Of a DNA stretch of 30,889 nucleotides, positions 186-20,967 are shown piece by piece (within the stretch, counting starts at the first letter, position 1; each line of letters opens with the position of its first letter). The position numbers and the translations under genes are program-made. The DNA lies in the IMG/VR virus record IMGVR_UViG_3300046703_000030, positions 1-30,889 of that record. One strand, 5' to 3'. The notes under the pieces were generated by a model. It did not search any database. It was not told the DNA's origin and saw nothing but the letters and a program-made list of their open reading frames with translations. This DNA is from a virus.

Positions 186-3100
186 CTACGCCATAGACAT
201 CTGTTGTAACAATCTCCAATTCGCCTTCTGTCGCATCATGTCCCGTGTTTCTTGTTTCGTAAGTGCCGCTGTCAGTGCGGACCCCTGCCCCGCACCCGTT
301 CCACCCGGAATTGAATACATAAGCGTTGTGATAATTTCGTTGACCTGTTTTGGTTTTCTTTTCCCGATTATTATGCCGACTTTATCCCCGATATTAAAAT
401 CTCTAGGATACCGAACCTGATCAGTCTCCTGAATGGTCATTGTAAGTTGTGCATTTACGACTGATTTAGCAAGTGCGAGATTATTTGCAGCAACCATACT
501 AGCCGCGATCTCTGCCGGTGTAGCATCCTTCACTGCTTGTACGTTACTGATCCAACTCTCCCATCTTCCATAGTCGTTTATTGATTGTATATTGCCACTA
601 GGAAGCATTTCCTTCATTGGCCCTGTCGTCGGACCGCAACCCCAGACCATATTTGCGACAGGCGGACCGTACGAGTAGGTGTATTCCTTGAGATTCCCCA
701 AATCTTTAGAAAATATAAGGTTCCCATCGAGTGATAAATCCGCCCCAACGAATGTATCAAAAAGGAATTGTTTATTTTCTTGCGTAATTTTAAAGTTGAT
801 GCCCCCACTTAGACAGATGTTTGAAACTTGTGTGAGTAAATCTTCCCCCCTACTGTTCGCCGTTACTATCGTTCCCTGTGAATTTGGTCCGGCGATCTCA
901 AGGTGTGGAATTGTACGAGTACTGAGGAAATCTGCGCAAGCACCCCGTCCTGCGTTAAGCCACACCAATCTTTTAGCCACATCATCGGCAACACCTGTTT
1001 GGGTATCGAATCCGATGTAAGCAGGATCATCCACAATTCCCCCAGATGTTTGGTATATTGTACCACCTACCGGGAATGCTGGTGCTAAAACGGCGGGTGT
1101 TTGTTGCGGAACTGCGATTGTAAGTGTGTTCGTGCTAAAATCCACCCCGGCAAGAGTTAACAATGCACTATCGTAAGATGCAGGATCACCATAATTATCA
1201 GTTCCCGGTAACGTGTTCCAGTTTGTGACTTGAATACCTTCTGCGGTCAGATACATTACCGTATTGCCTTCAACGAATCCCAATGCGTTTTCTACGACAA
1301 GCGGCACATCATACTCATACCCAGCTTTTGCACCGAACGATATTTCCTTACCGTCTGTGTCTTTTGATGTTTGTGTCTTAATCGGAGAGTTAATACCAAT
1401 CGCAGAACGTTGAACCCCAAATCGCCAGTTTCCGACGGTCGTATCAAAAAGCGGTCCTGTGACAACGGGATAACAGATCCGCCCTCTCAGATATGCGAGA
1501 TCACAACCACCCACAATCGTTGTATTCTCGATCCCCCCCGATGAGGTATGCATAATCCCGTTCGGCATGATAGGCCCATCAATCAAAAGTTCATCGTCAC
1601 GATAGAAAAGAATCCCTGTATTCTCATCAATATCGTAGCTCTCGAAATCCTGAGTGTGCATATCAAGCTGCCAAGAGGATACTTCATTTAGTTTTAACGT
1701 ATGCTGCCATTTGGTGAACCGTGTTATTTCACCAATATCTTCCAGTTCCGAATTACGAATGATGATCCTATGTTCCGCATCGACTAACTGAGTCCGTGTT
1801 GAATGCGGTAAACGTGAGACAACCTCAGGTCTTGCGGGTGGCTCTGGTATAATAGTAGGTGTAGGCGGAATGGTAAAGATAAGTGTGGTGACTAATGGGA
1901 CTGACGTAGTAACATTTGGGATGTCTACTTGAGTATAATCGTTTGAATCGCACCCGGGAATAATAACCGGAACTTCTGTAACTGTAGAAGATACGACTGT
2001 TTGAACGTATGCCGGATTTGAGAATAAAGAGATTTCAACCGCCGGGGTTTCCGCTGTAGCATCTGGAACCGTCGGTGTGTATGTTGGTGAGGTAGTGGCT
2101 TCAATAACGACTTCGAGTCCGACATCGGCATAATAGTTATCGGAGAGTTCGGTGTCTGTGAGAACACGATTGTGAAGGCGGAATAAGAAGAGCCCCCCGT
2201 TTAAAGAATAGATACCTTCTGCATCATCGGAGTAATTTCCAATTGTTAAATTATTGGCACTATCATTATAGTACGCATCTGTGACTCCTGAGTCATACGC
2301 AGTAAGTGTTAGTACTTCATTGTTAATTTTTACAATCGGGTCATTAGCAACATTGGTAGCGTCCCACGCGACTTGAATATGATAAACGTTCGCCGCAGAA
2401 AATGGATAATCACCGGCCCACGATTTGTATGCAACACCCCCATCATCAAATCTATAAATTAGAAATCTATTTCCCCCACTACTGATGGCTACAAGAAACA
2501 CGTCGCCACGTTTACCAAATAAGAAAGTTCCGCCGGTTCGATTGTCGGCGTAATAAATCCCAAATTCTAACGTGTGGGCGCCGAGGTTATCAATCGCTGG
2601 GCCGTGAGGGATAGAAATATAATCTGTGTTAGTATCAAAAAGGAACTCCGTGGCACCGGAGGGTAATAAATAATAATCATTATCCGCCGCCGTTGCATTG
2701 TACGCACCCCCCGCACGACCTTCATTAGTTATGGTGACTCCTGTAGTAGGCCACGTCGAGAACTTAACCTGACAGGCGTCTTCATGAGGGGTTCGGGCAG
2801 CTGCAGAAGTGGTTGTAGGAACTGTAGCCTGGGTATATTCCTTATCCTGTTCTACTACAGCTTCGACATTCGGGACCTCTGCCGTACTGTTCGGCACTGT
2901 TTCCAAAGTGTATTCGGGATTTGATTCTGCGACAAAAGGAACAACTAAGTGCGTTTTCGCCGTTGCATTAGGGATTTTAAATTGCACATACGTCGGGTCA
3001 ATTTCAAATATGTTAGGCGTAATTTCCGTGACGGCTGTAGTTGTATCAGGGATTGTAGTTTCTATATATTCCCTGTCCTGAACTATTGAGGGTGCGACTT

Positions 3101-4880
3101 CATTAACAGCGGATTCAGTAGTCGGAACAGTAGATTCTATATAATCAGAACCCATTGATGCCGCTGGACTAACTGATGCTGAGGCAGTAGTAGGGACTGT
3201 CGATTGTGTATAAGTAGGATTACAAATCAACGACGGGACAACTGCAGGGACAGTCGTTGTTGAAGTAGGAACAGTCGTTTGTTCATAACTTGGACTACTG
3301 GTAGGCTCAACGACAGGAGGGATACTTGTAGAGGTGGTATTAGGCACAGTTGCTTCAGTATATGTTGGATTACATATCCGCACGACCGCCGGTGCTACAG
3401 GCACGCTGGTGGCGTTTGGGATAGTAGACTCCGTATATTCTCTATTTTGTAAAATAGAAGGTGTTGGACTAACGCTTGCACTCGTGGTTGTTGGAACGGT
3501 CGTTTGTGTATAGGTAGCATTAACAGTAGTATAGCGCCAGCTTTCAGTATTATACGAGTGAGTTACATCACCAGCAGATAGTTGCGTATTATGAAACCTG
3601 AATAGATACCAATTGGCGTTTAGTCGCGCCGAAGTATTGCTTATGTATCCGTTGTCTGCACTATCGGCATACCAAACATCAGTAGTTCCGCTGTGCCCTG
3701 TAACTAACGTTTGTAGAGTCCCATTTAGGTAAACATTCGGAGCGTTAGCTGTATTAGAAGCATCCCAAGCGATAACTACATGGTACATCCCGGCTGCCGG
3801 AAACGCGTTATTTTGCGTTCCGTATAACTTATATGCCGTACCGCCATCGTCATAACGTAATACATTTAGAATATGATTTGTCGTGTCTATGGCTACTATA
3901 TACTTACTATATTTATCATAAACTCTCGCTCCGTCGTGCGTGTCAGCATTATAATAAAAAAGAAACTCAAAAGAGTGGAGAGTTGGCGTATCAACGACCG
4001 CCCCTTTCGGCACCCGCGCATAATCTGAATCATCATTTATGGCTAAAACTTTAGCACCGCTACTAGCTGTGGAAATATCACTTGCGTTAGTTATCGTTCC
4101 GTTATAACTACTGCCAGCTATTCCGTCATTCGTCTGCGTTGTCGATGCTTCGCTCCAATCATATTCGACTTGACAGTTTGCCCGATACCATCGCGCCCTG
4201 TCTGCGGCATAATTATCGTCAAGATATGCAGACGATAATGCAGCGTTATGCAAACGGAACATAGTGAGCAGCCACTTTGTATCGTTCGCGGTGTCATCGC
4301 CACGTCGCCCTAACGTTGCATTATTCCCACTATCATCAGCCCATGTCGTACCTGCGCTACTCACGTCTGTCGCTGTACAGTTAACGCCGTTTACGTGGCA
4401 TACGGGCACGTTCGCGTGGTTAGACATGTCCCACGTTATCTGAACATCATACCAATTACCGGTGACAAAAGTAGTCACGAAGGAATAAGTGCGGTGATGG
4501 GTGCTGTCCTCTTTTCTCTCAATGTTAATGCGGCCCCCCGCTATGTCATAATATATCAGAACGCCTAAGTTGGCTCCTGCGGTATTCTGCTTTTTATCAT
4601 AGAGTAGAGGCCACGCACTTGTATGCTGTCCGCCCCACCTGAAACCAAACTCCCATGTAGCAGTCGCTAAATTATCAATAGCGGCACCATGGGGGATAAC
4701 CACTCCGTCGGTTACATCGGTGGCGTTAAAGCCTGTTGCGCCGCTAGCTAAAAGAATATAATCATTATCTGCCGATGTTGCGTTATAAGTAGCGCCCCCG
4801 CTACCTTCGTTTGTTATAGTCGTTCCGGTCGTAGGCCACGTTGAGAATTTTACTACAGCATTAGTTTCGTGAAGGGTCAC
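186..4880 (-). CDS. Tail hub/adhesin: three LamG domains, 25-residue repeats, C-terminal Gp37-like hub domain
   Basis: This is a 1564-residue protein. I place the start at the GTG at 4880, which overlaps the previous stop as GTGA and follows GAGGG at good spacing. The resulting N-terminus (MTLHETNAVVKFSTWP) matches that of the 962-residue protein (MTVHEANAVVKYTTWP). A start 18 bases further upstream is also open. Residues about 1-230, 235-455 and 700-925 are three LamG/concanavalin-like beta-sandwich domains, each ending in a phrase like FRLHN. Thr/Pro-rich repeats of about 25 residues (TYTEATVPN...VVPSI) fill 455-700 and 930-1010. Residues about 1030-1564 resemble the Siphovirus ReqiPepy6 Gp37-like family of tail proteins (opening with HRIIIRNSELEDIGEI, later FNIGDKVGIIIGKRK). 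The expected role is the tail-tip hub carrying carbohydrate-binding arms. The adhesin modules precede the hub domain, which is unusual. LamG 1 and 3 are close copies even in DNA. Confidence 0.82.
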   Translation of the reverse strand: MTLHETNAVVKFSTWPTTGTTITNEGSGGATYNATSADNDYILLASGATGFNATDVTDGVVIPHGAAIDNLATATWEFGFRWGGQHTSAWPLLYDKKQNTAGANLGVLIYYDIAGGRINIERKEDSTHHRTYSFVTTFVTGNWYDVQITWDMSNHANVPVCHVNGVNCTATDVSSAGTTWADDSGNNATLGRRGDDTANDTKWLLTMFRLHNAALSSAYLDDNYAADRARWYRANCQVEYDWSEASTTQTNDGIAGSSYNGTITNASDISTASSGAKVLAINDDSDYARVPKGAVVDTPTLHSFEFLFYYNADTHDGARVYDKYSKYIVAIDTTNHILNVLRYDDGGTAYKLYGTQNNAFPAAGMYHVVIAWDASNTANAPNVYLNGTLQTLVTGHSGTTDVWYADSADNGYISNTSARLNANWYLFRFHNTQLSAGDVTHSYNTESWRYTTVNATYTQTTVPTTTSASVSPTPSILQNREYTESTIPNATSVPVAPAVVRICNPTYTEATVPNTTSTSIPPVVEPTSSPSYEQTTVPTSTTTVPAVVPSLICNPTYTQSTVPTTASASVSPAASMGSDYIESTVPTTESAVNEVAPSIVQDREYIETTIPDTTTAVTEITPNIFEIDPTYVQFKIPNATAKTHLVVPFVAESNPEYTLETVPNSTAEVPNVEAVVEQDKEYTQATVPTTTSAAARTPHEDACQVKFSTWPTTGVTITNEGRAGGAYNATAADNDYYLLPSGATEFLFDTNTDYISIPHGPAIDNLGAHTLEFGIYYADNRTGGTFLFGKRGDVFLVAISSGGNRFLIYRFDDGGVAYKSWAGDYPFSAANVYHIQVAWDATNVANDPIVKINNEVLTLTAYDSGVTDAYYNDSANNLTIGNYSDDAEGIYSLNGGLFLFRLHNRVLTDTELSDNYYADVGLEVVIEATTSPTYTPTVPDATAETPAVEISLFSNPAYVQTVVSSTVTEVPVIIPGCDSNDYTQVDIPNVTTSVPLVTTLIFTIPPTPTIIPEPPARPEVVSRLPHSTRTQLVDAEHRIIIRNSELEDIGEITRFTKWQHTLKLNEVSSWQLDMHTQDFESYDIDENTGILFYRDDELLIDGPIMPNGIMHTSSGGIENTTIVGGCDLAYLRGRICYPVVTGPLFDTTVGNWRFGVQRSAIGINSPIKTQTSKDTDGKEISFGAKAGYEYDVPLVVENALGFVEGNTVMYLTAEGIQVTNWNTLPGTDNYGDPASYDSALLTLAGVDFSTNTLTIAVPQQTPAVLAPAFPVGGTIYQTSGGIVDDPAYIGFDTQTGVADDVAKRLVWLNAGRGACADFLSTRTIPHLEIAGPNSQGTIVTANSRGEDLLTQVSNICLSGGINFKITQENKQFLFDTFVGADLSLDGNLIFSKDLGNLKEYTYSYGPPVANMVWGCGPTTGPMKEMLPSGNIQSINDYGRWESWISNVQAVKDATPAEIAASMVAANNLALAKSVVNAQLTMTIQETDQVRYPRDFNIGDKVGIIIGKRKPKQVNEIITTLMYSIPGGTGAGQGSALTAALTKQETRDMMRQKANWRLLQQMSMA
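1860..2100 (-). repeat. Short second block of 25-residue Thr/Pro-rich repeats in the hub gene
   Basis: About three degenerate copies of the 75-bp coding repeat lie between the third LamG domain and the C-terminal hub domain (for example SPTYTPTVPDATAETPAV). They probably act as a spacer that separates the LamG arm from the hub. Confidence 0.7.
2790..3535 (-). repeat. Main block of 25-residue Thr/Pro-rich repeats in the hub gene
   Basis: About ten imperfect tandem copies of a roughly 75-bp coding unit link LamG domain 2 to LamG domain 3. The unit reads [N/D/S]PxYTxxTVPxxTxx...VVPSI, with two predicted beta strands per copy. The same unit forms most of the 962-residue protein at 18079-20967. 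Confidence 0.8.
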
Positions 4881-5254
4881 GTGAAGCCCTCTTTCCACGT
4901 GCCGTACCCGAGTGCGATGCCCTCCGAAGGACCTTCGTTCTCAACACCTTCATCGTGGTGGCATTTGTGGATTTTAATAAAACTGGGGTAGGTTAAATCC
5001 AATCTACTCGTTAAGGCTGTGATGGCATCACGTGCGGCATCTCTATCCGTTTCTAAGGAGAACCTTGCGGAGAATTTGATGAGAGTAACGCCGTCTCCTA
5101 GAACCTCTTTTGAGTATGTATTAAAATTCCGATAATCGCTAAAACACTTACCCGTTCCCGTTATTCTCGTTACGATTCCGTTATAGATAGTGGTAGCTTG
5201 TGTCGAATAAATCGCCTTATAATAAAGTTGGGCGATGATATGATAGCTCGTCAT
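4877..5254 (-). CDS. Small tail-tip protein of unknown function (125 aa)
   Basis: I do not recognise a family. The gene sits between the Dit-like gene and the hub gene. Its ATG follows a GGGGATT ribosome site that overlaps the end of the upstream gene, and its TGA overlaps the GTG start of the hub gene, so translational coupling is likely. The protein is mixed alpha/beta with no membrane segment or signal peptide. It has a Tyr-rich N-terminal third, a middle region IKFSARFSLETDRDAARDAI that reads as strand then helix, and a C-terminal KIHKCHHDEG stretch whose Cys and two His could bind a metal. Position and coupling suggest a minor baseplate or tail-tip component, but nothing in the sequence proves it. 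Confidence 0.7.
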   Translation of the reverse strand: MTSYHIIAQLYYKAIYSTQATTIYNGIVTRITGTGKCFSDYRNFNTYSKEVLGDGVTLIKFSARFSLETDRDAARDAITALTSRLDLTYPSFIKIHKCHHDEGVENEGPSEGIALGYGTWKEGFT

Positions 5255-5256
5255 TT

Positions 5257-8200
5257 TTAAATCCCCTCGTATCTCTGCACAAGTTTCATATTCGCCATGC
5301 TCTTCCCATATTTCGCAGCACCCATCTCAATCTTGACTATATTAGTTCCGGGTTCTAAACCCCAGAAGAATCTATTATCTGTATCAATCAAATATCGCAG
5401 ATTGAACAGGCCTCCGACATTAGTCGTCGTTGCTGCTGAGGCATCTACCCATGTACTGACCACTCCTGAACCGTGGCAAGTCGGACATATCTGTGTGCCC
5501 CCGCATCCTTCACATGCCGCAGGGATAATGCCAGTGCCTTTACAGGTGGGACACTTATCCGCTCTCACATAACCACCCCCCGCAAATCCAGCAACCGCTG
5601 TTCCTGCGCAGGTATGTTCGGTTTCGGTCGCGTCTATTACGACCATTTCACCTTCAGCAAGGTCATGATTCAGTTGGAAAATGTCGCCTGTCGTGACGTT
5701 CGTAAGCGTGGGAGTGCGTGCTGGCCCCATGAGCGTCCATACTGGATATGCGACATTATCACTCGCGTTTGTAATGGCTACCCTCTTAGCAAGACTACTC
5801 TCTCCAAATCGCCATGTCAGTTTAGGCCCACATGTTTCCTCGATGATTTCCGTCGAGACTGGATCTTGCCCTGTTGTGTGTACGCCGCACCACGCTTTGA
5901 TGTAAAGGTCGTCTCTATACAGTGCGATAACTGCGGGCATCATGTTTCCAATCGCGTGATACCCTGTCGGTAATGGAGGGCCGCATGCTTGCGCAAACGC
6001 ATAGGCATCTGGATACCGGAGCGCAGCAGTATCCATCCCTATATTGAGATTTCCGAGTTCGTCGTATGCGCTGTGTGCAGCGAATAAGAGTTTTCCTGTT
6101 ATTGGTTCATAACGGTCTGCGACAATGCGTGTAGTTGGATCTGCTTCGTTATCCTGTGTTTCGACGTACGTTATGTCAATGTTTAAAAATTTAGTATTCC
6201 AATAGGCTTTCAATGCTGCTAATTGTGCCTTTGCAGCATAACAAGGAGGACACTGACGCATCCAAAAAATGACAAGTTCACAATCTTGATTTAATGTCTT
6301 TTCTGCGGAAGTAAGGAACTTGTCTACGTGGTCTACCTCGGTAAGATATGCCTCATATTTCACTAGATAATCGTTGACCAGCGGTGTTTTAAGCGTCAAA
6401 AGTGTAGGACTATCGACTGAGTCTATGATGTTATCTTCCAGTACCTGCGTAACAACTGTTTTAACCGCATGATACAGAAGTTCACCATCTGGCGACGGTG
6501 CGATAGACCCTAAGTATGTACCATCAGCGACAAATACAGTTCGGAAGTTGTGCATGCCTGCACCGAGGTCATCATATGTGATCGAATATTCCCCATCAGA
6601 ATCCGTCACACCCGTTAACCGTTCTATCCAATCATAATACATTGCACTAGCTTTTGCTACAGTGTAATTATATGCTAGCGCATTATGAACGGTTATTACC
6701 TTTGTATCTCTATCAATCGCGTCTATCACATTAGATTCTGAATAAGGATCAGAACTTGAGATTGTCACCGTTCCGCCAACTACAAAGCCGTCGACAGAAT
6801 CGAGTGTAACAGTGTGCGTCCCTATTGTAGCGGTTGCCGTAAGTAACGCCGCAGCATCTTCTTGTAAGCTAATTGTCTTCCCTTCAATTGGTGTATCATC
6901 TATCCGCTTTGAAAGAGTCCCACTAATCACAAGCGGAATACCACTAAACTCGAAGGTCAAGTAAGTGGCTTTAAGAGCCGGTTCCGTCCATGGGGCTGCT
7001 CGATCTGACGGATATGTCAGCATCATATCGGCAATCATTGCCTCAAAGCCAAGTTCTTTATAAAGACTAATCTGTTCGGCAACGATATTACGCGGTCCCG
7101 TTGCCTGAGTAGTCGGGTGGAACCAAACCACAAAATTATTCATCCCTACTTCTTCCTGATAACTCCAATCTAACAAGTCTCTAAAAGTGGGTGTTAATTT
7201 AGCAACTGAGTTAATAAGCATCTGATTAAGGCCCTTATCATCACTAGGCCATACGATTGAAGTTAACCCACTTAGTTTGCTCGGAGTCGCGTTAAAAGCG
7301 GCAGTTGTAAACGATTGAATGTAGGAGACTGTGTTAGTATTCCAGCACTTGAAAGAGTTATGATCAACCCCCGTTCCTGAGATATCGGGTTGTGTTGCTA
7401 CATCCCCCCTAGGATACGGATTATAATTGATGTATAAAAATCCGAAATGGGAGTTAAGGTATGCGGGGTCTCCTGCCCTGCCTGTTGTGTTAATTCCTGA
7501 AACGTAGCGCCATCCGGCTGTATAAAGCGAGTGAAGCCACGTATGCGTCGCACTTCCGATGGTAAGGTCCGCTATTTTATCCGTAACCAATGAAATGTCA
7601 ATAGCCGCAGTAAATCCCTGAGCGATTATTAAATCATATTCTTCACTATAATCATCGGTGATTGCTTCCGCTATAAGGAGGATGCTTCCGAATTGTTTAT
7701 TGCCAAAGTATTGGATTTCTCCATCATTAACCTGACTCGGTGTTAAGGCGGCCTGATAACTAATAGGATAATTCGGTGTGCCTATTTTAAGCAGAAGTTT
7801 GACATCACCTGCTGCATATGCCTGACGTCTAGTTGTTGTTTTGCCTATGTTGAAAAAGTCCCCCATCCACCCAAACACTGAATCAAATAGATCGTTGAAG
7901 AATGTGCCATAATCACGGGAGATACTCTCCGCCCATGACTGTGTTTTCGTATCGACCGAAGCAACGTTTTTAGCAGCATCACCAGCATAGACCGCTTCAT
8001 AGTGAACCCACCCATCTCTCGGTTCTGTGATGGCTAAAGAGTATTCTCCCGATGCGTTTGTCGTAGCGGTTCCTATCTTAATTTTGCCATTAGGATGTGC
8101 CTTGTATAATGTGATCGTCTGATTAGGAACTGGGTTATCTCCTGCCGGAGTGCCATAAAGCGTAAAGATGTCCCACCGACCTGAGTGTTTTGTTAGACTC

Positions 8201-9576
8201 CTATAGCTCCATATACCCTGCGGTGTCGTGAGGGTTGTTCCACCTAATTTATTTTTAGTCGTTGTTCCGGCGCCGGGGATGTATCCTAAGTGTAATGCAT
8301 CATCATAGTCCATTACAACGCTATCCGTGTGTGATGTAACTGCGGTTAGTTTCCCTTTAAGATTGAATGACGCGGCTGCAAGCGGATTCCCTGATGAAGA
8401 CGTAAGCGAAAGAGTTGTAGGTGCAACCGTTCCGACCGTTACTGCTTTAACAGCAGTAGAGGGAAGCCGATAATCGTCACCCTCAAAGAGTGCGGTGATA
8501 TGGTATCGTCCTTCATCTTCTAGTTTAATTGGAACCTCCCATTTTCCAAAGATATCAGTTAGTGTGCTAAGAATTTTAACGTTGGAAATATTAACATCCG
8601 AAAGTGAGATATTAGATTGTGATGAAATTTGCGAGATACTTTGTGATCCATAGTTTATAGTATTCCCTGAACCAGTGATAGCCCCCGTGCTTTGTATCTG
8701 CGTGATGTTCGCTACTTGAACGTTCACTTGTTGGTTTGACTGCGCGACGGCTGACGTCTGTGTTTGTGCCGTGAGCTTTCCAGATACGACGACTGGCTGA
8801 TTTGCGGCGGGTGTTTCTACATTGATAGCAACCGTTACGTTTGTTTCAACGATTTGATTGCCAAACGGATTGTCTTCAGGGTCTGGAACCATATTAGGAT
8901 CAAAGGTATAATCGTCTTCAATAGTGTACTTAGCTCCACGAATCTCAACAGCCTTACTCGGTATGCAGTTTGCGGTATTTGTAAGAGCTATTTGTGTATC
9001 CCCTATATGCGCATCCTGAGCGAGTCCTACAGAGTGAGTGAAGGTAAAAAAGTTTTCAGACCACGGAGAACTTGAGAAGTTTCTTGAGATTTCAGATCCC
9101 GGTGCATCATACCAATACGGATCAAAGGCTTCGACATAAAGCGGAACTTTCTGCCAGTTAGGACCTTTGTTCCAATCATCTACGACAGATTCAAACCCTT
9201 TAGAATACTGACAATAGAGCACCCTCGTTCTTCCTTCTTTATTTGTAACCCACAGTTCAATCTCATTCTCAGGTCGGAGCGATTGTCGAATCCGTGAAAA
9301 GTTCTTATGAAAGTCTGCTTCGTCTGTGCCACATATTCTGATAGGGAGATAAACCGTCCTAACCCCTCGTTGCATCTGGCGCTTTTCCGCTCCTGCAATG
9401 TAGGGTACCACATCTGAGGTATAGGAAACGGGCATTCCATGGTGGCCTGTAACGCCTTTTAATAGATCATATCTTGAGTAATAAGAAGGGAAGTTCGGAT
9501 TCTCTTCGTGCATAAATTCAGTATTAAGATTATAGACTGCCCCATCTTCCGTTTTAAGAATCCATTTTTCCGACAT
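5257..9576 (-). CDS. Giant Dit-like distal tail protein with Ig-like, thioredoxin-like and zinc-cluster insertions
   Basis: This 1439-residue protein follows the tape measure gene, the usual place for the distal tail protein, and starts at an ATG behind GGAGT. Residues about 1-215 look like the N-terminal domain of siphovirus Dit proteins (VRTVYLPIRICG; WQKVPLYVEAFDPYWYD). The matching C-terminal Dit domain is at about 1250-1439, with the family phrases YPVWTLMGPARTPTLTN and FFWGLEPGTNIVKIEM. Between them lie Ig-like modules at about 250-390, 390-545 and 880-1035, a globular region at about 645-875 that could be a sugar-active barrel, and a thioredoxin-like domain at about 1090-1235 with C1109-P-P-C1112 and a likely cis-Pro near 1213. 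A DnaJ-like cysteine cluster (CPTCKGTG, CEGC, CPTCHGSG) interrupts the terminal Dit domain at about 1342-1371. The Dit assignment is strong. The roles of the insertions are inference. Confidence 0.85.
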   Translation of the reverse strand: MSEKWILKTEDGAVYNLNTEFMHEENPNFPSYYSRYDLLKGVTGHHGMPVSYTSDVVPYIAGAEKRQMQRGVRTVYLPIRICGTDEADFHKNFSRIRQSLRPENEIELWVTNKEGRTRVLYCQYSKGFESVVDDWNKGPNWQKVPLYVEAFDPYWYDAPGSEISRNFSSSPWSENFFTFTHSVGLAQDAHIGDTQIALTNTANCIPSKAVEIRGAKYTIEDDYTFDPNMVPDPEDNPFGNQIVETNVTVAINVETPAANQPVVVSGKLTAQTQTSAVAQSNQQVNVQVANITQIQSTGAITGSGNTINYGSQSISQISSQSNISLSDVNISNVKILSTLTDIFGKWEVPIKLEDEGRYHITALFEGDDYRLPSTAVKAVTVGTVAPTTLSLTSSSGNPLAAASFNLKGKLTAVTSHTDSVVMDYDDALHLGYIPGAGTTTKNKLGGTTLTTPQGIWSYRSLTKHSGRWDIFTLYGTPAGDNPVPNQTITLYKAHPNGKIKIGTATTNASGEYSLAITEPRDGWVHYEAVYAGDAAKNVASVDTKTQSWAESISRDYGTFFNDLFDSVFGWMGDFFNIGKTTTRRQAYAAGDVKLLLKIGTPNYPISYQAALTPSQVNDGEIQYFGNKQFGSILLIAEAITDDYSEEYDLIIAQGFTAAIDISLVTDKIADLTIGSATHTWLHSLYTAGWRYVSGINTTGRAGDPAYLNSHFGFLYINYNPYPRGDVATQPDISGTGVDHNSFKCWNTNTVSYIQSFTTAAFNATPSKLSGLTSIVWPSDDKGLNQMLINSVAKLTPTFRDLLDWSYQEEVGMNNFVVWFHPTTQATGPRNIVAEQISLYKELGFEAMIADMMLTYPSDRAAPWTEPALKATYLTFEFSGIPLVISGTLSKRIDDTPIEGKTISLQEDAAALLTATATIGTHTVTLDSVDGFVVGGTVTISSSDPYSESNVIDAIDRDTKVITVHNALAYNYTVAKASAMYYDWIERLTGVTDSDGEYSITYDDLGAGMHNFRTVFVADGTYLGSIAPSPDGELLYHAVKTVVTQVLEDNIIDSVDSPTLLTLKTPLVNDYLVKYEAYLTEVDHVDKFLTSAEKTLNQDCELVIFWMRQCPPCYAAKAQLAALKAYWNTKFLNIDITYVETQDNEADPTTRIVADRYEPITGKLLFAAHSAYDELGNLNIGMDTAALRYPDAYAFAQACGPPLPTGYHAIGNMMPAVIALYRDDLYIKAWCGVHTTGQDPVSTEIIEETCGPKLTWRFGESSLAKRVAITNASDNVAYPVWTLMGPARTPTLTNVTTGDIFQLNHDLAEGEMVVIDATETEHTCAGTAVAGFAGGGYVRADKCPTCKGTGIIPAACEGCGGTQICPTCHGSGVVSTWVDASAATTTNVGGLFNLRYLIDTDNRFFWGLEPGTNIVKIEMGAAKYGKSMANMKLVQRYEGI

Positions 9577-9590
9577 CTTGACTTACTCCA

Positions 9591-12500
9591 TTAAAGATGA
9601 TGATAGTTCTCCATTTCTTGGAATGCTTGGAAAACCTTTCTAGTGATATTTTCCGAGTCCACTGTTACGTAAGCGTTGTATTCTGTGTTGGGTATCACTG
9701 CGGACGTTTGCCTTACGTTTCCTGACGGAAGGTTTGTTGATCCTACGATTGCCCCGCTTCCGTATTTAGGTAGTGAATCCAAAATCCGAGGGTCGATGCC
9801 CCAAAACAGATCTTCGGGGATAATGGCTTCTGCTTTTCCTGCTTCTGCGACCATTACAGGAACGCCCCCGGAACGTGGACCGATGACCCCGCCACTCTGC
9901 ATACTGAGAAGAGCAAGACCTTCAGAAACACCCGGTAACTTCTTTAATTCTGTTAGAACGCTTGAAGGGATATTCTTGATCTGGTCAACGACGTTCTTTA
10001 TTTTGGTATAAAGGTCTTCGAGTGCTTGAAGATTTAAAACTTTAACATCAAAAGTGATGCCCCCTGAAAGGGTACTAAAGCCAGTCTTACCGAATAGTGC
10101 CGCTATATTCTTTAACGTATCATAGACTGTTTGAAGTAGACCAGAATCTCCAGTAACAGAAATCCCAAAAGCAATAGCTAACGCGCCTTTTACATTATTA
10201 TAAATCCACACAATCGCATCATAAACGTCTTTGGCAAATCCCCCCATCCACGCTAGGCCTGATAAGATAAACGGAATCGACTTAGCAACGAACCCTGCTA
10301 ACCAGACAATCGCATTATAAACCGCTTGTAAAAATCCTTCACCCCAAGCAAGACCTTGTATATCAAACACAATATATTTAGTGCTATGCGCAATGAAGGT
10401 GTCATAAAGCCATTTCACAATTAAATATGTAGCCATACCCAAAGGACCAAACGTAAGTCCTACTACAAATGCGATATTCAGCGGGTCTTTGCCAAATACT
10501 GCGACAAGCGCGGTGGTAATTAGATCCTTAATCGCATTGCCTATCATTGGCCCCCATAATGGGGCCCCTAACATTATGGACGTGTATATACCCTGCAAGA
10601 TCAGCCCCGCGATATCTATCCATGACATTCCTGTAAGTCCCGACCTAATCACACCACCTATTGCGTTCCCTGCTAACGGGCCGTATACAGATCCGCCGAG
10701 CGTGAGTGATGCAATGATGCCCCCTATAATTAATAACGCAACGTTAAGCCAGTTAATGGTGGATACCCATTTTCCTACATCGCTTTCAAACGCGCCATCT
10801 CTGAAGTATGCACCAAGTGCATCTCTCAGCCCTTTTACGAATGCTTCGGCGGCTTTTACACCGGCAGCAGTTAGTGAGGTGGTATCCTGCGTCATCAGCT
10901 TCGACCCACCTTCAGGAACCCAACCCTGTGATTCCCCATATGATTCCGGGGTTCCGCCTGCTGAAGTTACTTCTGAGGGAACAGGGCCATAATATTTTTG
11001 GGATGGCTTGCCTGCTGCATATTTTGCCGCATCAGCAGCTTGTTCTGCGTCAGTCATCGGCCCGCCGGATGTTCCAGCCGTTATTGCTTCGTTAAGCGCC
11101 TGACCGATATTAAGCGCCCCTCTAAATGCCTTTACTATTATACCTGCTAACTGACTGCCAACATCTTCCCAGTTCTGTTGGTTGATCCAATTGGCTATCG
11201 TCGTTCTGACTTCGTCCCATACTCCTTTAATAAGTTCGATGTCGCCTCGAATCCCTTTAACTGTTTGAGTGATAATCTCCTTTCCAACAGTCGCCCAGTC
11301 TATTTTCTTGACCTCAGCAATTAGATCGGTAAACCCTTTCTTGACTTCATCAAGTGCGCCTTTAATGTCGCCGCTCATTAACTTGCCAAACGCGGCTGTC
11401 ATGTGCCCTGCGAACTCACTGAGGATTGTTTTTATTTTATTAAAGATATCATGCAGTTCAGTAGAATGTCTCCACGCTTCTACAAGGGCAAGTCCGATGG
11501 CGATGAGTGGTATAGTTATCGCAATTACCACTGCCAAGATCCCTGCGATAAGAGGTAAGAACGGGGTTATTATCCCGGCGATTCCCACAAGCGCCGCCAT
11601 TATACCCCCACCCGTTAAGAAGCCAAAGATTGTGGCAATCATCGGGCCAAGCGGCGCTAAACTTGCTATTATCATTCCCACTACTAGAAGCACCGGACCT
11701 AATGCTGCTGCTATCCCACCGATAATTACGATTACCATTTTAATCGGCATTGGCAGAGTTTCAAACGCTTTGGTGATGCCAAGTACTATATCAATAACCG
11801 GGTTAAGTAGATCGAGTAAAGCATTAAGCGTAGCAAATATCGCGCTTCCGATAGGCGCGAATGCGATCTCTAAACGGTTTCTGAGGATTTGTAAACGTTC
11901 GCCGAATGTTTTAGTAGCTTCAGATTCTTTCTCAATCAAACCGTGAGATGCTTTAATACCATCCATCAATTCGTCAGTGCCGATCTTCCCAGTCTTAACG
12001 GCATCTCTAAACTTAACTACATTCGCACCTAAGAGGGCAATATCATCAGCGGACTCTTTACCCTCTTTAAATCGTTGAATTAACTTAGTCCATTCTGTTC
12101 CTGCGTCTTTTCCATCTGCACTTAGTTTAGTTATTACAGAAGAGAGCATTGAGATACTCTGACGTGCGGGAAGTCCTGCGGCTGCAAAGTTCGCAATCAT
12201 TACAGCAGTTTCATCGAAACCAATTCCTGCTGCGCGAGCGATGGGTGCTGCCTTAGCCATCGTATCTGATAAATCGTCAAAGCCTACGCCTGTGTTCTGA
12301 GAAACATAGGTCAATTCATCCATACGGTTGCCCATCTCAGAAGCCGGAACATTGAATGCTTTAAAAACAGTGGAGAGGGATTCAGCGGCAGATACCGCAT
12401 CGACACCCATGATACGCGCCATATCGATCATCTGTTTGCTGACCGATTCTAATTGTGGCCCGATTAACCCCAATGTCGAGATAAGTGTGGTAAATACTGA

Positions 12501-12842
12501 GCTGACTTTGCCGATATCTTCAGGAACATTAGAAGCTACGTTTAAAAATTGAGTCTTTACTGAATCAAGTGCAGCTCCGGTTAACCCCGTCTGCCTCTCA
12601 ATAGAACGCATCGCGCCATTGACATCAGAAGCAGACTTCATCGCAAAGGTCGCAATCGCCACAATAGGCACCGTGACCGCCGCAGACATTGCCATTCCAG
12701 CATCTTTTAAGCCACCACCTATAGAGGTCATGGCGCTTGATAGGCTAGAACCTAGCCCTTTTGAATCGTCTTCCGCTTGTTTAAAAGCTTTAGATAGCTC
12801 GGTTAAATCTGCGCCGAATTTGACAATTACATCAGATGCCAT
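9591..12842 (-). CDS. Tail tape measure protein (TP901-type)
   Basis: This 1083-residue protein sets tail length and is thought to fill the tail tube and reach the host membrane at DNA ejection. The N-terminal 330 residues match the TP901-type tape measure core (MKSASDVNGAMRSIERQTGL, later SQNTGVGFDDLSDTMAKAAP). Strongly hydrophobic segments occupy about 340-450. A second hydrophobic region at about 670-860 contains a repeated unit (GGSVYGPLAGNAIGGVI, then GAPLWGPMIGNAIKDLI). Near residue 1000 is the familiar tail-end motif PVMVAEAGKAEAIIPEDLFW. At the usual 0.15 nm per residue this predicts a tail near 160 nm. It starts six bases after the T-frame stop. I see no obvious peptidase or lysozyme domain. 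Confidence 0.95.
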   Translation of the reverse strand: MASDVIVKFGADLTELSKAFKQAEDDSKGLGSSLSSAMTSIGGGLKDAGMAMSAAVTVPIVAIATFAMKSASDVNGAMRSIERQTGLTGAALDSVKTQFLNVASNVPEDIGKVSSVFTTLISTLGLIGPQLESVSKQMIDMARIMGVDAVSAAESLSTVFKAFNVPASEMGNRMDELTYVSQNTGVGFDDLSDTMAKAAPIARAAGIGFDETAVMIANFAAAGLPARQSISMLSSVITKLSADGKDAGTEWTKLIQRFKEGKESADDIALLGANVVKFRDAVKTGKIGTDELMDGIKASHGLIEKESEATKTFGERLQILRNRLEIAFAPIGSAIFATLNALLDLLNPVIDIVLGITKAFETLPMPIKMVIVIIGGIAAALGPVLLVVGMIIASLAPLGPMIATIFGFLTGGGIMAALVGIAGIITPFLPLIAGILAVVIAITIPLIAIGLALVEAWRHSTELHDIFNKIKTILSEFAGHMTAAFGKLMSGDIKGALDEVKKGFTDLIAEVKKIDWATVGKEIITQTVKGIRGDIELIKGVWDEVRTTIANWINQQNWEDVGSQLAGIIVKAFRGALNIGQALNEAITAGTSGGPMTDAEQAADAAKYAAGKPSQKYYGPVPSEVTSAGGTPESYGESQGWVPEGGSKLMTQDTTSLTAAGVKAAEAFVKGLRDALGAYFRDGAFESDVGKWVSTINWLNVALLIIGGIIASLTLGGSVYGPLAGNAIGGVIRSGLTGMSWIDIAGLILQGIYTSIMLGAPLWGPMIGNAIKDLITTALVAVFGKDPLNIAFVVGLTFGPLGMATYLIVKWLYDTFIAHSTKYIVFDIQGLAWGEGFLQAVYNAIVWLAGFVAKSIPFILSGLAWMGGFAKDVYDAIVWIYNNVKGALAIAFGISVTGDSGLLQTVYDTLKNIAALFGKTGFSTLSGGITFDVKVLNLQALEDLYTKIKNVVDQIKNIPSSVLTELKKLPGVSEGLALLSMQSGGVIGPRSGGVPVMVAEAGKAEAIIPEDLFWGIDPRILDSLPKYGSGAIVGSTNLPSGNVRQTSAVIPNTEYNAYVTVDSENITRKVFQAFQEMENYHHL

Positions 12843-17723: not shown

Positions 17724-18082
17724 GGTGCTGCCTCCGGAATAACAAGACTTGGATCAAGTTGGAGTAGTCCTTTCATCATAACTTGCGTAAATCCCCCATA
17801 GTCCATTCTTAACTGATGGTCATACGTGAGTGGGGCAAGGTCTGTCGTGTCGTCATCTTCTAAGGTGATAACGACTTCACCTCTGTTCGTTGTTTGATTT
17901 GAGATAGTGATTCCGTCACCTACTGTTTTAGTGACTACTGTTCCAGTTAGAATATGCCACATTCTCCATTCAAATACAAAGTTTGTTATGTCGTCTTTAG
18001 CAAGGGCTGCCGTTTCAACCGTCGCTGTAATACTTCTTGTCTCTCCTTGCCTCATTTCAATAAGGGGTATGATCGTAGTCAT
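17720..18082 (-). CDS. Ig-like small virion protein of the connector region (120 aa)
   Basis: I take ATG at 18082, which overlaps the stop of the repeat protein as ATGA; an in-frame TTG at 18091 is an alternative. The protein is a single beta sandwich: MRQGETRSITATVET, then FVFEWRMWHILTGTVVTK, GEVVITLEDDDTTDLAPLTY, and a late DYGGFTQVMMKGLLQLDP. Proteins reading 'QG.T..I..TV...' and 'V.I.L...DT..L....Y' are common beside phage connector or baseplate genes. The family name is not certain. It may be a minor head or neck protein that anchors the large repeat protein encoded immediately upstream, which is inference from coupling. Confidence 0.7.
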   Translation of the reverse strand: MTTIIPLIEMRQGETRSITATVETAALAKDDITNFVFEWRMWHILTGTVVTKTVGDGITISNQTTNRGEVVITLEDDDTTDLAPLTYDHQLRMDYGGFTQVMMKGLLQLDPSLVIPEAAP

Positions 18083-20967
18083 GATCCACAACTCACCGCC
18101 AAGTCTTGATTTTCTATCAGGATTATGCCGCTAACATCAGATTTTTTAATGATAGTATCAGTCTCATTCGCTTTTTCAATCAGTGTAATTTCCGTTATTG
18201 CATCTTCTAAGGCAGTTGCAGTCATGCCGCCAGCTTCGATTAGCGTCACTTCGATTGTTGGATAGATCGTTTGTAGTGCTCTGCATAGATTAGCAGACGC
18301 AACCACTCCGGGAGTAGACATATCGACATTTGGATTTGCTGATGATGTGACTATAACTGCCGGGACTGAGGTCGTTACGTTTGGAATGGTTACTTCAGTA
18401 AACGACGGGCTGCTTGAGATTGAAGGAACTACTGCTGGCGTTGATGTTGTCGCTCCCGGACAGGACATCGCTACGTTTATAGAAATCGAAGGAACTACTG
18501 CTGGAATAGAAGTAACCGTATTAGGAACTGTTGACTGGTTCCATGCGTAATTGCCTTCTGTCGATATACTAGGAATTACTGATGTTGTTGATGTTGTCGG
18601 GACTGTGGCTTCAGTATAAGATGAGTCCTGCACGATTGAGGGGACTACGCTCGGAACAGTAGTTGTGCTGCTAGGAATGGTCGCTTCAGCATACGTCCGA
18701 TCCTGCTCTATTGAAGGAACCACTGTAGGGGTAGCAGCAACCACATCAGGAATTATATTAAAGAAGAAATTGACGTTCTTTTCATACGTAACTACAACAG
18801 CGGGTATTGATGTTTCAGTAGTTGGAATGGTAGACTCGGTATAAGCTGCATCTTGTAAGATTGAAGGCACAACGGCTAGTGTTTCTGCTGTTGCGTTAGG
18901 CACAGTTGATTGTGTCCATATACAATTGCCTTCAGATGATATGCTCGGAACGTTTGATGTTGTGGTTGTATTAGGAACTACTGTTTGTGTGAACGTAGGA
19001 TTTGATTCATCAACAGATGGAACCACTGCGGGTATTGATGACTCAGTTGAGGGAATGGCCGCCTCATTAAACCCCCGGTCTTGTAAGATTGAAGGAACTA
19101 CTGAAGGTATTGAGGACTCAGTAGTTGGAAGCATAGCCTCAGTAAACGTAGGGTTGGAGATTAACGAGGGAACAACTACTTGTGTCGATGCTGTTGCATC
19201 TGGAATGGTAGACGCTGTCCATGTCGCGTTACCTTCTGCTGATATGCTTGGAATAACCGAAACGGATTCTGTAGTAGGTACAACCGTTTCTGTAAAGGTT
19301 GGATTAGAAACAGTCGAGGGCACAACTACTTGTGTTTCTGCTGTTACAGTGGGTATTGTTGTTTCTGTATATGTCGGACTTTGAATAATAGAAGGAACAA
19401 CTACTTGTGTTTCAGAGGTTGTATCTGGGACAGTTGTTTGCGTATATGTTGCATTTTGACCTGCTGATGCATCAACGGCAGGGATTGATGTGGTAGTTGT
19501 TGGTATTGTTGTTTCTGTATAACCCCGATCCTGAACTATTGTAGGAACAACTACTTGTGTTTCTTCTGTCGCATTTGGAATAGTCGATTGTGTATATGTC
19601 CGATCCTGTTCTACTGAAGGAACTACTGCTGGTATAGTTGACGCAGTAGAGGGAATCGTTGATTCTGTATAAGTTGGATTGCAGATTAAAGAAGGAACAA
19701 CTACCTGTGTCTCTGCTGTTGTGTTAGGGATAGTAGCTTCTGTATACTCACGGTCTTGTAAAATTGAGGGCGTTGGTGAGATAGAAGATGTAGAAGAAGT
19801 TGGTATTGTGCTCTCTGTGTAAGTAGGATTTGACTCTAGTGTTACGCCTACTGTTGGGACTGCTGTTATCGCGTGTGGTTGCGGGTCTTCATTGACTGAC
19901 CTATTCTGCACGATTGAAGGAACAACTACTTGCGTTGCTGCTGTCGAGTCAGGGACTGTTGCCTCAGTGTATGTTGGACTCTGAACTATTGAAGGCACTA
20001 CTGTTTGCGTGGTTGCTGTCGAGTCTGGAACAGCAGTTTGTGTATACGTTGGACTTTGAACTATTGAAGAGACTACTGTAGGAATTGAAGTAGTCGAGTT
20101 TGGAACCGTTGCCTCAGTATACGTTGGATTGCTGATTTTCGTGACGACCGGACTAACGCTTGCGCTTACTGTGGATGATACGGTCGTTTGTGTATAGGTT
20201 GCATTAGTCGCATCGGGAACGTTAGTAATACTTGGACTAACTGAAGATGATGTGCTGCCCGCAACAGTAGTCATAAATATGTAGGGGCCTGTTGAAGTGC
20301 GCCATAGATCGTTATTATAATTATCAGTCATCTCGGCATCAGATAATATAACGTTATGCCATCGGAAGAGGGCTAATTTGGCAGGTAGGTATACCGATCC
20401 ACTTAACGTATTAAAGAGTGCCGCGTTGAACGCGGAATCACTCGCCCAATCGCTTATCGAGCCGCTCCAATTTTGCAGCGCTTTAGATGCGTTATTTACC
20501 TTAAAGACCGGGGTATTATCCCAATCGGTCATATCCCACGTTACCTGAACAAAATACCAGTTACCGCCGGTGGCTGCGAAACTACCTGATGTGCTGTAAT
20601 CGCGCCCCCCGCTAAACGCCGCATTAGGGCGATATATTTCTAACGTGCCGTTGTGAAGTAAATTAAGTTTAAAACTACCCTTTCTAATAAGGGGTGTTGT
20701 ATCCCCCGCCGGTAACGCCGTTAAGTAAAACAGAAATTCCCATGTTACAAGCGAGGGATTATTAATAGACGTGCCTTTAGTGATGTGTACCTCATCGGTA
20801 GAGTCCGTGAAATCAAATGCCGTAGCTCCCGATGGGAGTAATACATAATCGTCGTCTATTGCGGTTCCGTCGTATGCGGCGGCCCCCATTTCGTTATCTA
20901 TGGTTTTCCCGGGTGACGCGGGCCACGTTGTATATTTGACTACTGCATTAGCTTCGTGAACAGTCAT
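18079..20967 (-). CDS. LamG plus 26-copy 25-residue repeat virion adhesin or fibre (962 aa)
   Basis: The ATG at 20967 follows TAGGTAAACAAAAG. Residues about 1-230 form a LamG/concanavalin-like domain whose start (MTVHEANAVVKYTTWPAS) is plainly related to the hub protein's LamG domains. Residues about 250-890 are about 26 tandem repeats of 25 residues, with consensus like NPTYTEATVPNSTAETQVVV followed by PSIVQ. They are extremely rich in Thr, Ser, Pro and Val, almost free of Lys and Arg, and likely form beta strands stacked into a rod. The last 70 residues are different: short helices and strands with EITLIEKANETDTIIKKS, perhaps an attachment domain. There is no signal peptide. Location among the neck genes suggests a head or neck fibre or whisker, but the function is unproven. 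Confidence 0.78.
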   Translation of the reverse strand: MTVHEANAVVKYTTWPASPGKTIDNEMGAAAYDGTAIDDDYVLLPSGATAFDFTDSTDEVHITKGTSINNPSLVTWEFLFYLTALPAGDTTPLIRKGSFKLNLLHNGTLEIYRPNAAFSGGRDYSTSGSFAATGGNWYFVQVTWDMTDWDNTPVFKVNNASKALQNWSGSISDWASDSAFNAALFNTLSGSVYLPAKLALFRWHNVILSDAEMTDNYNNDLWRTSTGPYIFMTTVAGSTSSSVSPSITNVPDATNATYTQTTVSSTVSASVSPVVTKISNPTYTEATVPNSTTSIPTVVSSIVQSPTYTQTAVPDSTATTQTVVPSIVQSPTYTEATVPDSTAATQVVVPSIVQNRSVNEDPQPHAITAVPTVGVTLESNPTYTESTIPTSSTSSISPTPSILQDREYTEATIPNTTAETQVVVPSLICNPTYTESTIPSTASTIPAVVPSVEQDRTYTQSTIPNATEETQVVVPTIVQDRGYTETTIPTTTTSIPAVDASAGQNATYTQTTVPDTTSETQVVVPSIIQSPTYTETTIPTVTAETQVVVPSTVSNPTFTETVVPTTESVSVIPSISAEGNATWTASTIPDATASTQVVVPSLISNPTFTEAMLPTTESSIPSVVPSILQDRGFNEAAIPSTESSIPAVVPSVDESNPTFTQTVVPNTTTTSNVPSISSEGNCIWTQSTVPNATAETLAVVPSILQDAAYTESTIPTTETSIPAVVVTYEKNVNFFFNIIPDVVAATPTVVPSIEQDRTYAEATIPSSTTTVPSVVPSIVQDSSYTEATVPTTSTTSVIPSISTEGNYAWNQSTVPNTVTSIPAVVPSISINVAMSCPGATTSTPAVVPSISSSPSFTEVTIPNVTTSVPAVIVTSSANPNVDMSTPGVVASANLCRALQTIYPTIEVTLIEAGGMTATALEDAITEITLIEKANETDTIIKKSDVSGIILIENQDLAVSCGS
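18300..20212 (-). repeat. Tandem 75-bp coding repeats (about 26 copies)
   Basis: Most copies are exactly 25 codons. Some adjacent or alternate copies are nearly identical in DNA, such as the plus-strand phrase ggaacaactacttgtgtttc near 19320, 19395 and 19545 with close variants near 19170, 19695 and 19920. This indicates recent expansion by slippage or unequal recombination. Three spacer types recur: one ending ETQVVVPS, one ending SIPAVVPS, and one ending VIPSISxEG followed by a Trp-containing copy. Confidence 0.9.

Follow-up and report, generated by a model that had tools for sequence, protein, structure and literature searches.

The question raised by this locus is whether the distal tail (Dit) protein of a phage contains a thioredoxin-like domain and, if so, on what this domain might act. 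The window, i.e., the whole stretch of DNA that was analysed (an IMG/VR virus record of 30,889 bases), encodes portal, capsid, head-tail adaptor, tape measure and tail genes. One long gene had been read in the first-pass annotation as encoding a Dit protein, and this context was corroborated by family matches as well as by gene order. The N-terminus of the product matches PHROG families of Dit and minor tail proteins (phrog_33, phrog_106), while a C-terminal fragment scored above the cut-off of the Pfam family SPP1_Dit (29.8 versus 25 bits), which was matched by all eight long Dits described below. The gene lies between those for the tape measure protein and a Tal-like protein, and in isolate phages with Dit homologues the genes for tape measure protein, Dit and minor tail protein likewise follow one another in this order. 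Between the Dit and the Tal-like gene of the window there is an open reading frame of 125 aa (positions 4877-5254, minus strand), whose product matched neither Pfam nor PHROG. The features are compiled in the table.

Features of the Dit gene and its neighbours (positions refer to the window; residues to the Dit protein)
Feature	Position	Strand	Evidence
Dit (distal tail) protein, 1439 aa, containing all modules	5257..9576	-	ORF; PHROG; Pfam SPP1_Dit; gene order
Dit N-terminal (ring) domain, residues 1-172	9061..9576	-	found in minimal Dits (308-315 aa) as well
Ig-like (Big_3_5) domain, residues 471-539, in cassette	7960..8166	-	Pfam E 7e-5, below curated cut-off
Conserved domain without assigned fold, residues ~583-874, in 7/8 long Dits	6955..7830	-	alignments
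Thioredoxin-like domain, residues ~1085-1255	5812..6324	-	conservation, profile matches, model, Foldseek
CPPC motif, residues 1109-1112	6241..6252	-	8/8 distinct Dits; starts predicted helix 40-59
Met-Pro, residues 1213-1214, candidate cis-Pro loop	5935..5940	-	8/8; predicted strand starts two residues later
AWCGVHTTG loop, residues 1228-1236	5869..5895	-	place of third active-site loop of thioredoxin (inferred by alignment)
Dit C-terminal (galectin-type) domain, cysteine segment in loop	5260..5793	-	SPP1_Dit Pfam 8/8; also in minimal Dits
Shortened DnaJ-type segment CPTCKGTG...CEGCGG...CPTCHGSG, residues 1342-1371	5464..5553	-	Pfam DnaJ_CXXCXGXG 8/8
Tape measure protein, upstream neighbour	9591..12842	-	Pfam PhageMin_Tail E 9e-20; many PHROG tape measure matches
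Tal-like / Gp37-like minor tail protein, downstream neighbour	186..4898	-	Pfam Sipho_Gp37 E 6e-20; PHROG minor tail protein

Searches with the single Dit sequence did not disclose any close relative in viral contigs or phage records. Relatives were reached by way of the major capsid protein, which led to related virus contigs and from there to Dit homologues. In total, 16 virus records (window included) contained eight distinct long Dits, which are as a rule 46-60% identical (one pair 76%). Seven of them comprise approximately 1230-1630 aa, the eighth only 582 aa. Six further records yielded three distinct minimal Dits of 308-315 aa, which can be aligned over their whole length with the terminal domains (N and C) of the long form and have nothing in between. 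Since the minimal Dits correspond to the long form without its middle part, we regard the long form as a Dit that has received insertions. In a tree of the Dit core, from which the insertions had been removed, the eight long Dits lie on one side of a branch (support 93/96) and the three minimal Dits on another branch (support 85/78); the outgroup branches are very long.

The insertions of the long Dits include a cassette with an Ig-like domain followed by a conserved domain of about 290 aa. The latter shows the motif pattern AIDIS...GWRY...GDPAY...GTGV...NSF, and the copy of the window is 49-53% identical to those of the other members. A profile search with this domain gave no significant match in PDB or Pfam, and the idea that it might be a glycosidase was dropped for lack of a match in that search. 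The 582-aa Dit is devoid of the Ig-like domain and of most of the remaining cassette, whereas it contains both the thioredoxin-like domain and a DnaJ-type cysteine segment. Thus, these two modules form a pair that is independent of the cassette.

Insertions in Dits are not unprecedented. In the evolved Dits of siphophages, carbohydrate-binding modules are inserted in the protein (PMC7291167). These Dits share with the long form a Dit core with inserted domains, the gene order tape measure - Dit - Tal and the display on the tail-tip ring. In the known cases the insertions are carbohydrate-binding modules residing in loops of the galectin domain, whereas here the thioredoxin-like domain lies between the ring and galectin domains and the DnaJ-type segment within the galectin domain. 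No family of carbohydrate-binding modules was matched in the Dit of the window, where the Ig-like domain and the domain without assigned fold were found instead. Described Dit insertions bind sugars; an evolved Dit with a redox module did not come to light in a limited search of the literature.

The elements on which the thioredoxin assignment had originally been based could all be located, namely the string CELVIFWMRQ, CPPC at residues 1109-1112, the following YAAKAQLAALKAYW, the string NIDITYVETQD and a Met-Pro in front of AVIALYRDD at residues 1213-1214. CPPC occurs only once in all six reading frames of the window. The same insertion, sought in the related Dits, was present with CPPC, Met-Pro and CGVHTT in all eight distinct long forms. 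Also invariant in these eight proteins are a Trp four residues upstream of CPPC, a Gly-Met before the second helix, a Cys-Gly-Pro, an Asp-Pro and a last Cys-Gly-Pro. The loop AWCGVHTTG contributes a third invariant Cys (1230) and a His (1233); two further Cys residues outside CPPC and CGVHTT are invariant as well, while the Cys ten residues upstream of CPPC is conserved in seven of the eight. The residue just before CPPC is Gly or Gln (GCPPC or QCPPC), so that the WCGPC active site of thioredoxin proper is absent, and the position of the buried Asp of thioredoxin is taken by Ile, Val or Gln.

A profile of the eight Dits matched solved thioredoxins in the PDB with a best E-value of 1.4e-5. Altogether 142 sequences had E < 1, and the 60 matches listed were mostly thioredoxins, TlpA and related folds. 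By use of hhalign, probabilities of 95.7% and 96.5% were obtained against profiles of four classical thioredoxins and of six TlpA-like proteins, respectively, with alignments that span the first beta-alpha-beta unit only. When the profiles of the C-terminal half were forced into a global alignment, no sensible register resulted. Single-sequence comparisons with Pfam produced glutaredoxin and thioredoxin matches which all remained below the curated cut-offs (e.g., 13.5 versus 23.5 bits for PF00085), and two of the long-Dit members matched the PHROG 'thioredoxin domain'. Matches of the stretch 108-154 to cruzipain (single-sequence E 0.03-0.2) were absent among the profile matches listed and were judged to be due to chance.

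Attempts were also made to determine how strongly these matches depend on the motif itself. When CPPC was replaced by X in every row of the alignment, a thioredoxin remained the best match of the profile and the register was unchanged, yet the E-value of 0.21 was no longer significant. The sequence evidence thus leans on the motif, and the fold assignment rests mainly on structural modelling. This loss of significance, together with the sub-threshold Pfam scores, is what would be expected if CPPC had arisen by chance within an unrelated cysteine-rich domain without a thioredoxin fold. We regard this explanation as very improbable, because a thioredoxin persisted as the best match after masking, because the invariant Met-Pro is correctly placed and because the predicted topology and the Foldseek results point to the same fold.

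A structure predicted from a single sequence could not be used (pLDDT 33). We therefore refer to a model built by AlphaFold from an alignment of eight rows (A4, residues 1071-1439). Its overall pLDDT was 54.5, with low confidence for the C-terminal Dit domain and the cysteine segment, whereas the thioredoxin core block reached values of 70-86 across model residues 31-160. The predicted elements are a strand (29-35), a helix (40-59), a strand (63-69), helices (111-127), two strands (146-151 and 154-159) and a final helix (172-179), which corresponds to the core order beta-alpha-beta-alpha-beta-beta-alpha. CPPC (model residues 39-42) is located after the first strand at the start of the first helix, and Met-Pro just before the third core strand. 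In a Foldseek search of the PDB with this model the first 50 matches were mainly thioredoxins and other thioredoxin-like folds. The target-normalised TM-score of most thioredoxin-like matches was 0.4-0.67, none of the matches having E < 0.001; a library of viral structures gave mainly viral thioredoxins. The structure prediction and fold search proposed in the first-pass annotation therefore returned the thioredoxin order, albeit with weak E-values, and a predicted structure lacking this fold was not obtained. Conservation in eight Dits, PDB profile matches, model and Foldseek together make it very likely that residues ~1085-1255 adopt a thioredoxin-like fold, the second half of the domain being backed by the predicted model without support from sequence.

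The resemblance of the domain to thioredoxin-, glutaredoxin- and TlpA-like enzymes lies in the CxxC that opens the first helix, in the Met-Pro that precedes a strand and in the order strand-helix-strand-helix-strand-strand-helix. Between its second strand and second helix the domain has a long insertion, a trait found also in TlpA and tryparedoxin. Unlike classical thioredoxins, the domain is part of a virion protein, has Gly or Gln in place of the Trp before CPPC, lacks the buried Asp, possesses four further conserved cysteines and exhibits very low sequence similarity beyond the active-site region. Thioredoxin-like domains of phages have otherwise been reported as metabolic or replication proteins (PMC3556154, PMC9331655), and in a limited search of the literature we found no report of a thioredoxin or thioredoxin-like domain in a Dit or tail hub. 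A related case is gpL of lambda, which carries an iron-sulfur cluster in the siphophage tail tip whose function has yet to be settled (PMC10721106). As would be the case for the Dit domain, this is a redox-capable cysteine site on the outside of the tail tip of a siphophage; the two differ in protein, in fold and in the metal cluster. The finding adjoins the open question of this unexplained cluster.

Is the motif catalytic? Non-catalytic thioredoxin folds usually lose CxxC, whereas in the long Dits the full CPPC is invariant at an overall identity of 46-60%. As CPPC is, in addition, the active site of tryparedoxin (PMC9006252), the motif is in our opinion probably redox-active. If, on the other hand, the fold served merely as a scaffold or binding module, CPPC could form a stable disulfide or ligate a metal, perhaps together with Cys1230 and His1233. 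This possibility draws on the additional invariant Cys and His in a loop which the alignment places opposite the active site, giving an unusual Cys3-His set, and on the observation that Dit insertions are usually binding modules (PMC7291167). In view of the retention of the complete motif we consider it doubtful.

The second module of the pair is set into a loop of the galectin-type Dit domain. All long Dits contain the sequence CPTC(K/H/Q)G(T/K)G ... CxxCG ... CPTCHG at this place. The Pfam family DnaJ_CXXCXGXG (PF00684) was matched by all eight members with a best E-value of 2.9e-5. The segment of the window scored 20.3 bits compared with a cut-off of 32.7, which none of the searched records exceeded. 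A structure of the DnaJ zinc domain was among the PDB matches of the profile (E 0.0015), and a search at genome level recovered the same region. The CPTCxGxG motifs and their spacing are those of the central domain of DnaJ and of BSD2/ZnJ2-type chaperones (PMC5818400, PMC8262869). While DnaJ has four CxxC motifs, the Dit segment has three, two of which are nearly complete CxxCxGxG repeats and one CxxCGG, and does not show the pattern of PF00684 with four repeats and two zinc sites. It also differs from DnaJ by its score below the family cut-off, by the absence of a J domain and by its insertion in a tail protein. The segment may bind zinc.

Both modules occur together. The DnaJ-type segment was present in all nine records searched that carry the thioredoxin-like domain. 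In four records having a minimal Dit no thioredoxin-like match was obtained, the three of them searched for it gave no DnaJ_CXXCXGXG match, and two further minimal Dits contain no CxxC. Furthermore, no complete Dit having one module only was retrieved when either the Dit N-terminus or the cysteine segment served as the query. A single gain of the module pair fits the tree of the Dit core. The pairing may stem from one ancestral event instead of a functional coupling. The search with the cysteine segment also retrieved proteins of other phages with a DnaJ-type segment of the form CPTCKGTG...CPDCxGTG (L158:5614-7479, L159:5464-7035, L162:5680-7194, L166:5914-8043). The proteins found in this way are not Dits; several resemble prohead (head) proteases. 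This kind of segment is therefore present in unrelated phage proteins, too.

What could the pair do at the tail tip? In the first-pass annotation it was suggested that the thioredoxin-like domain might reduce disulfides in a host surface layer or influence how the tail tip folds. Domains of the DnaJ CxxCxGxG type possess a thiol-disulfide oxidoreductase activity of their own, which has been mapped to zinc site 2 of DnaJ (PMC8262869, PMC5818400). The presence of two thiol-exchange modules in a single virion protein suggests that they form one unit, and since tail hubs face the host surface, a disulfide at that surface would be the most natural client. With a probability of roughly 0.45, we favour the reading that the paired modules constitute one thiol-disulfide exchange unit in the tail hub, acting on disulfides of the host surface. 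The tail assembles in the host cytoplasm, so that CPPC would be released in the dithiol form. Once the virion meets its next host, the first Cys of the motif would attack a disulfide of a surface protein to give a mixed disulfide, which the second Cys would resolve by reduction or shuffling; meanwhile the DnaJ-type segment might hold the client, relay thiols, or both. We know of no electron donor or reductase for the virion. From this and from the assembly of the tail in the cytoplasm we infer that each copy of the unit would work a single time, or that the unit would function as an isomerase, for which no net electrons are required.

Alternatively, the unit could serve the virion itself, the thioredoxin-like domain forming, reshuffling or protecting the disulfides or the metal site of the neighbouring cysteine segment, either during assembly or as a redox or zinc switch that opens the hub on host contact. 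The modules are adjacent in one polypeptide, with the first half of the galectin-type domain between them, and they are present or absent together. The description of the tail tip as Cys-rich in the first-pass annotation was right for the other conserved cysteines of the thioredoxin-like domain and for the DnaJ-type segment but not for the tape measure protein, which is free of cysteine; the other tail proteins of the window contain few. The natural substrate within the virion would thus be the Dit itself. Yet DnaJ-type segments normally load zinc without a dedicated oxidoreductase, and the pairing is equally expected if both modules act on an outside client. Self-directed activity therefore appears rather unlikely to us, though it deserves serious consideration, and disulfides of the host surface are the more likely target than the virion's own cysteines.

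The module pair borne by the Dit points to an involvement of redox chemistry in virus entry or in the assembly of the tail, and suggests that the tail may make or break sulfur-sulfur bonds at assembly or host contact. It is conceivable, if only as a tentative proposal, that this clade of uncultured tailed viruses has a dedicated two-module machine built permanently into the tail-tip ring and directs it, at the onset of infection, against disulfide-bonded surface proteins of the host, which it would open, reshuffle or grip covalently. For testing the redox idea, a small expressible construct is offered by the C-terminal half of the 582-aa Dit.

Clues to the host were also sought. A provirus scan of 84,980 GTDB species genomes revealed no relative and only short matches to the DnaJ-type cysteines. 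The major capsid protein found no match in approximately 300 Chloroflexota genomes, which was uninformative as to the host. Matches of the Dit and the tape measure protein are a weak pointer to phages whose hosts are Gram-positive and largely actinobacterial, and those of the capsid protein lead to phages of varied hosts.

Some other genes of these viruses merit a short description. The tape measure proteins of the window (9591-12842, minus strand; 1083 aa) and of relative G006 (1232 aa) each contain zero cysteines, that of the minimal-Dit virus G009 two. In two large proteins of the window, encoded at 18079-20967 and 186-4898 (both minus strand), there are degenerate repeats of one common type, TYTEATVPNxTTSIPxVVPSI. 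The former protein consists mostly of these repeats, while in the latter they are placed between LamG-like stretches and the Gp37 domain; relative G020 has a similar-looking protein of 1004 aa (L104:8227-11241). Proteases of the papain family (Pfam Peptidase_C1) are encoded in G021 (L099:414-1625), a few kilobases from the tail genes, and in G020 (L103:5545-6843). They are possibly virion or lysis proteases and perhaps tell of a protein-based host surface. The large terminase subunit of G021 (L097:8629-11184) harbors an intein-like Hint / LAGLIDADG insertion. In addition, G021 encodes a Ku-like protein (L097:17594-18382) and G020 a PAPS-reductase-like protein (L102:7406-8239).
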